Origin: Candidatus Poribacteria bacterium
GTDB lineage: Bacteria; Poribacteria; WGA-4E; PCPOR2b
Direction: 5' to 3'
DNA length: 40,961 bases
NCBI GenBank assembly: GCA_022822785.1
Contig: JAJEAL010000011.1
Location: forward strand, 1 to 40,961
Each line of letters begins with the position of its first letter. Positions within the stretch are counted from its first letter, which is position 1. Under the pieces are notes generated by a model, which saw nothing but the letters and a program-made list of their open reading frames with translations, searched no databases and was not told the origin of the DNA. Positions 38,056 to 40,961 of the stretch are shown here, piece after piece. The position numbers were made by a program, and so were the translations under genes.

Positions 38056-40806
38056 TCAGCGCCGTCGAATCGTGAGGTTCAAGGGGAAAAACAATAGAAC
38101 AACACAAAATGCTAGTATCCATTGCCATTCTTTGAAAAGTGGGGCAAAACCAAATATGCGTTGCGTTGTTGGCAGATAGACGATTGATAAATGCAGCGCG
38201 GCACATGCCAGAACGGTAAAACATAAGGGCAGGTTTGCCTTAATTCGTTGGAAAACCGACTCCCAGAAAAGACGATGGCACTGGAAGTTTGAAATCAATA
38301 GTCCTAGAATCAGCGTCGTGCATGCTGCTGTTTGCGCCGTGGTATGCGAGTCCTGCTGCGTTGCCGCCAAACTCACAAATGTAAGAATGAAGCTAAAAAT
38401 AGTCATCGATGCGATGACAAGACTGCGCAGCAGCACATCATAGAAATCGGCTCGTGAGAGGAAGGGCGGAATCTGTTGAGGTTTGCTATACCTGAAATCT
38501 CCGCGGATGGCATCACAGCCTAGACTCATAAGGGGTATCAGATTTACGAGCAGATGAACCCAGCAGAGCTGGAGCAAGCTCAATGGCATGGGCAAGTCAC
38601 GGAGCAGCGGGAAGAAGCTGATATAGGGCAACACGCTTCCAATAATAAGGGTGATAAGCTGTGCAAGGCAGCAAGAAAGCAACCAGCGCATCGAGCTTCT
38701 CAAGTTCATATAAGACTCCCGGACCTGACGTATGAGTTCTGCGATGACGTTAAAACCCGGCTTAAACACTAGGCACGCCGCACGATGCTGAACGATATGT
38801 GATGATCGATCTACAGCGGCAAAACTGACATCAGCCATTCGCATTGCTCTTAAATCGAGAGGTGATTTCCCCCAGAATCCGACGGCATGTCCAAGGCGTT
38901 TTAGATGTTGCACGAGATTCTGTTTCTGCGTGGTGGAAGGATTGGAATACACAAGCAAGCGATTTACAACGGACTCATAGTGTTCATCACTGAACTCATC
39001 CAAATCTTCTTGTGTAACAACACTATATTTATCCTGGACAATAGCAAAATCTTTGGCAATATCTAGAGCGGCATTTCGGTCTCTATCCGTTATGGTGATA
39101 ATTTTAATCCCTGCGTCGAGGCAAGATTGGATGACCTCCTTTGAATTGGGATACTCTAGCTCGGCAAAGGTGACGAAGCCCAAGAAAGTCATGTTGTGTT
39201 GCGTTTCATCTAGCGAAGGGGGAGTGTTCAGGTTTCGGTAAGCGATGGCAACGGCACGAGTTCTACTATTTGATAGGTATTCAATTGCTCGGAGTGTCAG
39301 CTGTTTCTGATCAAAATTCATGTAATTGGCAGCCCCATCAATTTGAATACGATGACACGCTTGCAGGATTGATTCTGCATCTCCAAACATCAACTTTAAG
39401 AATTTGCCATCTTGAAGGGCGAAAATAAGGGTTTTGTACGGGTGTTCGGCGGTCGGAGCCTGTTCGTCAATTTTAGTGAAAGCTGCATTGTAACGTTCTA
39501 AATCGAATCCAATTCTTTCCGCTATGTGATTTAGCGTACCACCTATGCTCGCTTCTGCTACGGTCGAAATTTCATCTAGGCTACTCCTATCATTATCATC
39601 AGCACAGCGACTTGCGAGTAAGATTAGTAACGGAAATTCCGCAGGTACGTCTGAATCTGGTAATGCAGTTGCAATTGTATCGGCGTTCACTTCATCTGCT
39701 GTATCCTCATAGTGAGTTTCTAACCATGCTTCCCACTGTTCCCGATCAACGAGGGTATCGCCCACAAAAATGTGTGAAGCAGCCATCTCTCCCTTCATAA
39801 AATTACCAGCTTCGTCAACACAGGTCGCCGTGAGTTTGCTCAACCTCTCTAGATTGACAAGATTTCGAATTGCCACGCCTTTGTTGATGAGTCTATAGGC
39901 ATGTTGAGCAAGTATTGCCCGACTTGTTGAGACAATCCCTTCGGGAATTGACGCGACGAGAAAAGCAAATCCGAGAAACAGAAGTTCGCTCCAGTGGTTA
40001 CTTTTATCTTCAAACAGCCATGCTGCAAGAACCGCAGCTGCGCCCAACACAACCCCAGCCATCCGGAAATAATCGTAAAAAAAGCCCATTTGTACTTCGG
40101 CCTCGGCATCTAGATCAACAATTGGAGGGGTACGCTGCTCGGATTTGTTTATCTCTCGCCGATCGCCCGTTGCAACAACAATTGCCCGTGCTTCCCCCTC
40201 AAGGACGTACGTTCCAGCAAAAATCATATTACTTTGCTTTTCCGGTGGCAGATTCGGAGTAGAGATATCCTCATCAGTCTTCTGTGTGTATGTCGCCGTA
40301 CCAAATACCGGTGCTTCATCAACAAGTAGCGCATCCGCTTCAACAATACGGGCATCAGCAGCAATATAGTCTCCTTCCTTCAGGAACAACAGATCGCCGG
40401 GGACAATCGCCGTCGGGGGCAATTGAATAACACGTTCATCTCGAACAACGGATACAGTGACCTCTAGGTGTGCGCTAATAGATTGAAGCTGGTAGTGGGT
40501 CCTTCCAGCCTGAATAAATCGCCAGAGAACGTGAAAACAGAGGATAGACGAAAACACAAAAATCTCGTGAATCGCCCGTTGAAAATAGAAAAGGAAGCAA
40601 ATAATAATAAGCAGGAAAACAACCGTAAAGTTAGTGCACTGTTTCAATAGAATAATGAAAAGTGAGTTTTCCTGAGATTGCAGAGCTACATTGTTCCCAT
40701 ATTTGTTATGTTGGGTAGTCGCTTCCTCACTACTTAAGCCACGTTCGAGGTCTGTCTTGAATTCATGCAGGAGATGTGGAATTTTTTCAGCATACCAATT
40801 TAACAT
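38056..40806 (-). CDS. P-type ATPase homologue with degenerate catalytic motifs (pseudo-ATPase)
   Basis: The 916-residue frame has the layout of a P2-type cation ATPase: cation-ATPase N domain, actuator domain, TM segments, PEGL-like SIPEGIVS (287-294), P/N domains and C-terminal TM segments. The catalytic motifs are altered. DKTGT reads DEAGN (331-335), TGES reads FGTAT (168-172), KGAPE reads FGDAE (474-478), TGDxxxTA reads TDRDRNAA (573-580) and GDGxND reads WGKSPLD (645-651). The aspartate D331 is kept but the Lys/Thr around it are lost, so phosphorylation and turnover look impossible. The frame is intact with no stops, which argues for selection rather than decay. No strong ribosome binding site precedes ATG 40806. 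The ion or role is unknown. Confidence 0.85.
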   Translation of the reverse strand: MLNWYAEKIPHLLHEFKTDLERGLSSEEATTQHNKYGNNVALQSQENSLFIILLKQCTNFTVVFLLIIICFLFYFQRAIHEIFVFSSILCFHVLWRFIQAGRTHYQLQSISAHLEVTVSVVRDERVIQLPPTAIVPGDLLFLKEGDYIAADARIVEADALLVDEAPVFGTATYTQKTDEDISTPNLPPEKQSNMIFAGTYVLEGEARAIVVATGDRREINKSEQRTPPIVDLDAEAEVQMGFFYDYFRMAGVVLGAAAVLAAWLFEDKSNHWSELLFLGFAFLVASIPEGIVSTSRAILAQHAYRLINKGVAIRNLVNLERLSKLTATCVDEAGNFMKGEMAASHIFVGDTLVDREQWEAWLETHYEDTADEVNADTIATALPDSDVPAEFPLLILLASRCADDNDRSSLDEISTVAEASIGGTLNHIAERIGFDLERYNAAFTKIDEQAPTAEHPYKTLIFALQDGKFLKLMFGDAESILQACHRIQIDGAANYMNFDQKQLTLRAIEYLSNSRTRAVAIAYRNLNTPPSLDETQHNMTFLGFVTFAELEYPNSKEVIQSCLDAGIKIITITDRDRNAALDIAKDFAIVQDKYSVVTQEDLDEFSDEHYESVVNRLLVYSNPSTTQKQNLVQHLKRLGHAVGFWGKSPLDLRAMRMADVSFAAVDRSSHIVQHRAACLVFKPGFNVIAELIRQVRESYMNLRSSMRWLLSCCLAQLITLIIGSVLPYISFFPLLRDLPMPLSLLQLCWVHLLVNLIPLMSLGCDAIRGDFRYSKPQQIPPFLSRADFYDVLLRSLVIASMTIFSFILTFVSLAATQQDSHTTAQTAACTTLILGLLISNFQCHRLFWESVFQRIKANLPLCFTVLACAALHLSIVYLPTTQRIFGFAPLFKEWQWILAFCVVLLFFPLNLTIRRR

Positions 40807-40928: not shown

Positions 40929-40957
40929 GAAAAAGCCTCGCCTAATGACGAGGCTTT
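40929..40957 (-). terminator. Hairpin terminator, probably for a minus-strand gene beyond the right edge
   Basis: AAAGCCTCG (40932-40940) pairs with CGAGGCTTT (40949-40957). On the minus strand the stem is followed by TTCTG after further T's, a better terminator than on the plus strand. It would isolate the ATPase-like gene from upstream transcription. The 40807-40928 gap shows no clear promoter. Confidence 0.65.
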
Positions 40958-40961
40958 CAAT

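Follow-up and report, generated by a model that had tools for sequence, protein, structure and literature searches.

A P2-type ATPase fold conserved across Poribacteria is very probably a pseudo-pump without catalytic and cation sites

P-type ATPases are defined by a phosphorylated Asp. The nearest precedent for the protein described here is the contested eukaryotic ER protein TMEM94/ERMA, which has a P-type fold without TGES, with GSSANL in place of GDGVND and with a modified phosphorylation loop (PMC12134183, PMC13322241). Its activity and function are disputed: one study detected no ATPase activity (PMC12134183), whereas another claimed ATP-dependent Mg2+ uptake that requires its Asp (PMC13322241). 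The membrane domain of TMEM94 holds lipid, and a charged vestibule is formed by L67/M7, L89 and M10 (PMC12134183). No bacterial pseudo-P-type ATPase was found in the literature searched, which omits many subscription papers.

The poribacterial protein resembles TMEM94/ERMA in combining a P-type fold and the absence of TGES with altered Mg2+ and phosphorylation loops. TMEM94, however, keeps the Asp and the Lys (DKQGIL), is eukaryotic and carries a large extra cytosolic region, whereas the poribacterial family has lost the Asp in several branches and has replacements of its own (E332, F168 and F474). TMEM94 was not among the best 60 profile matches listed for the protein, the best being SPCA and LMCA1; these matches, together with a DEAGN loop whose Asp is dispensable, place the protein outside the TMEM94/ERMA family. 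Its full domain order and fold are those of the P2A-type Ca2+-ATPases (SPCA/PMR1, LMCA1 and SERCA), which provide the best PDB, NCBIfam and fold matches, but it lacks their catalytic motifs and cation-site residues, scores far below the equivalog cutoffs and has its constraint redistributed to M7-M10. The P1B copper pump CopA of the same genomes belongs to the same superfamily and is under purifying selection of the same strength, but has all canonical motifs intact and differs in subfamily and topology.

The gene lies near one end of the window, by which we mean the whole 40,961-nucleotide stretch of Candidatus Poribacteria DNA that was analysed:

38056..40806, (-) strand: pseudo-P-type ATPase gene, 916 aa, stop codon included, identified by its open reading frame, domain matches and AF2 model

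The frame is intact, with an ATG start and no internal stop. Three Pfam domains score above cutoff, Cation_ATPase_N (7e-11), E1-E2_ATPase (3e-26) and Cation_ATPase_C (2e-18), and the HAD hydrolase (phosphorylation) domain falls below its curated cutoff (16.6 vs 26.4 bits). The top NCBIfam model, a PMR1/SPCA-type Ca2+ pump, reaches 222 bits against a cutoff of 798, and the nearest PDB sequences are human SPCA1 and Listeria LMCA1. An AF2 model built from 40 sequences (pLDDT 84.5, pTM 0.78) matched SERCA, SPCA and Na,K-ATPase in the PDB by Foldseek; TMq was highest with E1 states (best 0.81, a SERCA E1 structure), although the conformational preference of AF2 is weak evidence and the E1-like state may stem from the method. 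L085, a member of the family with Asn at position 331, also adopts a P-type fold in its model (pLDDT 81.4; TMq 0.73 to SPCA1 E1). With the N-terminal, E1-E2 and C-terminal domains in order and a P-type fold, the protein is a P2-type ATPase by homology, and an earlier note on this DNA, which had read a P2-type domain order and topology preserved over 916 codons without a stop, is borne out by Pfam, the reading frame and the AF2/Foldseek comparison. A defence gene was also considered and rejected, as PADLOC gave no match for the pseudo-pump.

Every catalytic signature is rewritten at the following positions:

40291..40305, (-) strand: A-domain loop, residues 168-172, FGTAT for TGES; F168 is present in 71 of the 71 order members that cover the site
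39802..39816, (-) strand: phosphorylation loop, residues 331-335, DEAGN for DKTGT; E332, where canonical pumps have Lys, is present in 68/70
39379..39387, (-) strand: ATP-pocket loop, residues 474-476, FGD for KGA; F474 is present in 67/70
39082..39090, (-) strand: hinge, residues 573-575, TDR for TGD, from alignment with canonical pumps
38854..38871, (-) strand: Mg2+ loop, residues 646-651, GKSPLD for GDGVND; G646 and D651 alone are kept

The earlier note had aligned all of these changes correctly (TGES to FGTA, DKTGT to DEAGN, KGA to FGD, TGD to TDR and GDGxND to GKSPLD). F168 occupies the position of the Thr in TGES and F474 that of the Lys in KGA, and the canonical ATP-pocket residues (R517, the PF motif and the Lys of KGA) are replaced. 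The protein therefore has none of the features of a functional P2-type pump: a phosphorylatable Asp within DKTGT, the TGES loop, the nucleotide-pocket residues and the TGD and GDGxND loops. The possibility that the motifs are merely displaced in the alignment was rejected, because the canonical forms are absent from the entire length of 80 sequences; no DKTG, TGES, M[IV]TGD or GDG[VI]ND occurs anywhere in the 80 poribacterial relatives extracted, which comprise 72 from the order (including two contig-end fragments) and eight from elsewhere in the class or phylum. By comparison, among 67 relatives from other phyla TGES was found in 63, DKTGT in 63, KGA in 65, TGD in 67 and GDG[VI]ND in 63. More distant members of the class show intermediate motifs (DPRGV, TGIS, SDY and GRQLYD). 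The survival of D331, also pointed out earlier, is correct for the window protein and does not extend to the family: position 331 in 70 order members is N in 42, D in 25, and Q, H and S in one each, so that the phosphorylated Asp is lost in 45/70, and at least six switches between Asp and another residue are seen on a tree of 42 rows. The replacements themselves are conserved (E332, F168 and F474), which is not expected from decay.

The membrane cation site has fared similarly. In M4, one stretch remains recognisable:

39934..39945, (-) strand: M4, residues 288-291, PEGI; almost every member of the family has the proline, and the Glu occurs only in the window's own genus and in family f4

The PEGL-like proline that had been reported as kept is thus indeed present (P288) and common to almost the whole family. 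At the other positions of the window protein, the M5 Asn has become Cys, the M5 Glu Gln, the M6 Asn His and the M6 Asp Asn. Across the order, Thr replaces the M5 Asn in 62/71 and Leu or Gln the M5 Glu in 71/71; at the M6 Asn position 69/71 have Gln or His, and no member has Asp at the M6 Asp position. The cation-coordinating residues of M4, M5 and M6 are therefore missing as a set, the sole survivor being the Glu of PEG(I/L) in the window's genus and f4. The loss of these membrane residues, the conservation of some of the replacements and the spread of the family over nearly the whole phylum all go beyond the earlier note.

Of 85 genomes of the phylum, 84 gave an orthologue or relative (match at E <= 1e-10), and the one exception is 81% complete; across the order, fragments and split matches aside, the reading frames are open. 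An assembly artefact was rejected, since the pattern recurs in dozens of independent genomes, some of them single-contig. Set against 19 canonical pumps, the pseudo-pumps form one clade, separated by a single split (SH-aLRT 98), and the gene appears to have been inherited vertically through the main class of Poribacteria. No canonical P2 pump was detected in the class; the one P2-like match per genome is the pseudo-pump itself (E <= 1e-10). Two genomes outlying in the phylum differ: G060 has a canonical pump only (L060), and G059 has canonical-looking pumps (L061 and L065) beside a degenerate copy, L057, whose motifs read TGVS, NKKGI, RGT, TED and GKNSSD. The presence of L057 beside canonical P2 pumps possibly reflects an early stage in the origin of the pseudo-pump by duplication. 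In other phyla, the relatives checked were canonical or mostly canonical in a scan of genome contigs and 199 Planctomycetota genomes, which was not exhaustive and does not prove restriction to Poribacteria.

Within the genus, pairs had an NG86 dN/dS of 0.09-0.15, and the remaining close pairs 0.07-0.20; dS is above 1 in some comparisons and approximate there, but the closest pair (dS 0.23) gives 0.126. The ratio is uniform over the protein, at 0.10-0.18 for all nine domains, and matches the value for the genuine CopA of the same genomes (0.095-0.12). The earlier note had proposed a pseudoenzyme under selection and had named in advance what would speak for decay instead, namely canonical orthologues or a dN/dS near 1; both were sought, and the class contains no canonical orthologue and the ratios lie at 0.07-0.20. 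A decaying or lone mutated copy was accordingly rejected, on the strength of the orthologues and of a dN/dS equal to that of CopA. The family thus combines a homologous fold, lost catalytic residues and purifying selection, as a pseudoenzyme does.

The distribution of constraint has shifted. Column entropies, converted to ranks, were set side by side for 16 non-redundant pseudo-pumps and for samples of canonical pumps of equal size (mean identity 0.40 and 0.42, respectively), the canonical set being broader and hence not an ideally matched control. Relative constraint was lost in M1-M2 (p=2.5e-8), M3-M4 (p=0.009) and P1 (p=0.006) and was unchanged in the A domain and M5-M6. The region from L67 to M10 was relatively more conserved in the pseudo-pumps (p=5e-11):

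38059..38511, (-) strand: L67 and M7-M10, residues 766-916, the region that gained constraint

Conserved residues specific to the family in this region are D790, R794, C829, Q842, R845, W848, E849, R854, P908 and N910; by topology, D790, R794, R845, W848, E849, R854, P908 and N910 are placed on the cytosolic side of M7-M10. In other P-type ATPases, M7-M10 is the docking region for the beta and FXYD subunits of Na,K-ATPase and for the CDC50 subunits of P4 flippases.

The surroundings of the gene differ between the window's genus and most other families:

40931..40958, (-) strand: strong terminator-like hairpin of 12 pairs with a T-rich tail, 125 bp before the start codon, at the contig end
12874..16082, (+) strand: YCF48-like propeller, aminotransferase and homoserine kinase (thrB), a cluster that immediately precedes the pseudo-pump in most other families and is apart from it here

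In families f1 (genus g2), f2, f3, f4, f6, f7 and f8 the pseudo-pump lies behind thrB in the same orientation, in most cases 7-130 bp away, and the gene order in most poribacterial families (loci L039-L054) is SppA, Pcm, PorV-like, FlgD/CHU_C, YCF48-like propeller, aminotransferase, thrB and pseudo-pump. In the window's genus the gene has been relocated behind RNase E/G and rpmA, with the hairpin lying between it and these genes in the window, which suggests a separate transcription unit in this genus. Because the gene has left the thrB cluster in this genus, its function is independent of that cluster. The neighbouring genes thrB, aminotransferase, YCF48-like, PorV-like, Pcm and SppA, which make up a stable cluster, were also searched for a hint of function and gave no clear one. 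Two further observations concern these neighbourhoods: downstream of the pseudo-pump in eight f3 loci, the opposite strand codes for a DUF6785/DUF6784 membrane protein (L047:11095-13071, (-) strand), and in the window's genus a response regulator receiver fused to a PglZ domain lies two genes upstream of rpmA (L033:14104-15675, (-) strand).

We conclude that the gene product is very probably a conserved pseudo-pump, a P2-type (SPCA/SERCA-like) fold from which the catalytic and cation sites have been lost. Since every part needed for ATP use and ion binding has gone and selection is nevertheless strong, the protein must have another job; the earlier note had offered that of a sensor, scaffold or regulator, and we too infer such a role. 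On balance, we slightly favour, as the best overall explanation, a conserved pseudo-pump that acts as an inner-membrane scaffold or regulator. It also seems slightly more probable than not that the only P2-type pump of the class was converted into a non-transporting membrane protein, with an ATP site plugged by conserved aromatics, a phosphorylation loop inverted in charge (Lys to Glu) and a new interface at M7-M10. For the mechanism itself, an ATP-independent scaffold or regulator that docks through M7-M10, our proposal is tentative. The canonical pocket would bind no nucleotide and no aspartyl-phosphate would form, so that ATPase activity is predicted to be absent; the M4-M5-M6 site would bind no cation. 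Working without ATP, the protein may be held near one, E1-like, conformation, with the A and P domains serving as a conserved cytosolic platform and a partner docking where the support helices face the cytosol (L67/start of M7, L89 and the end of M10). No partner was identified, and none of the conserved neighbours thrB, aminotransferase and YCF48-like propeller readily suggests itself as a client.

A passive or lipid-handling protein, whose membrane domain would be an ATP-independent channel, facilitator or lipid binder as in the lipid-containing TMEM94, appears unlikely, though it has the most to recommend it among the alternatives. The membrane fold is complete, the new charged residues D790, R794, R845, E849 and R854 lie on the cytosolic side of M7-M10, and TMEM94 offers the parallel of a lipid in the membrane domain and a charged vestibule of L67/M7, L89 and M10 (PMC12134183). 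However, relative constraint has fallen in M1-M4, the pathway helices in P2 pumps, and the charges along the pathway in M5 and M6 have been neutralised. A pure channel, moreover, would need no conserved A, P and N domains, yet dN/dS in these domains is no higher than in the membrane part. Somewhat less likely still is a ligand or nucleotide sensor, in which a non-canonical ligand would bind the altered P/N or A domain and signal through P-type domain movements to the membrane or to a partner. Conserved new residues do stand at the old active sites (E332 in 68/70, F168 in 71/71 and F474 in 67/70), and the cytosolic domains are strongly constrained; nevertheless, the canonical ATP-pocket residues (R517, the PF motif and the Lys of KGA) have been replaced, the aromatics at 168 and 474 resemble plugs more than ligand contacts, and relative constraint has fallen in the coupling helices M1-M4.

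The earlier suggestion of a regulator of a true pump did not hold for a P2 partner: at E <= 1e-10, a threshold at which canonical P2 pumps should also be picked up, genomes of the order and class show the pseudo-pump alone, and with no canonical P2 pump detectable in the class, it cannot be regulating one there. What is left of this idea is regulation of another P-type pump in the same cell, for which the candidate is the P1B copper pump. The canonical P-type ATPases sampled in the same genomes are of this type, with a CPC motif, DKTGT and TGES, and occur in most of them, but the copper pump adjoins the pseudo-pump in none of the loci examined and no pairing between P1B and P2 pumps is known, which makes the idea improbable.

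An active pump with unorthodox chemistry, phosphorylated for instance on E332 or another residue as has been claimed for ERMA (DKQGIL), is more improbable again. E332 is conserved where canonical pumps have Lys, and Mg2+ transport has been claimed for ERMA without TGES and GDGVND (PMC13322241); yet ERMA keeps and needs its Asp, which is absent here in 45/70 with at least six changes, and the hinge, the Mg2+ loop, the ATP pocket and the cation site have all gone. Simple decay of a dying pump gene, stop-free by chance in the window genome, agrees with the joint loss of all motifs in the window copy but has a negligible chance of being right, given relatives in 84/85 genomes of the phylum with frames open apart from fragments and split matches, a CopA-like dN/dS of 0.07-0.20 and replacements that are themselves conserved.

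If the class did convert its only P2-type pump into a non-transporting membrane protein, proteins with a P-type fold would include a functional class distinct from pumps. A large and old bacterial family retains the whole pump architecture without requiring the phosphorylated Asp, and its roughly 80 diverse natural variants with a dispensable Asp provide a direct, testable counter-example in the TMEM94/ERMA dispute over pumping. The label "cation-transporting ATPase" is probably a misannotation of this gene in almost all poribacterial genomes, and a sponge-associated bacterial group retains a full-size pump-like protein under strong selection. A second, milder group of altered P2 pumps was seen in gut Clostridia (L099, L107, L111 and L151), with TGDD, TGVE, TGEA or TGAE in place of TGES, DKTGV or DKTGL, and GDSVxD or GDSIAD. 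These resemble the poribacterial family in their altered TGES and GDGVND but, unlike it, keep DKTG, KGA, TGD and PEGL, and may still be active.
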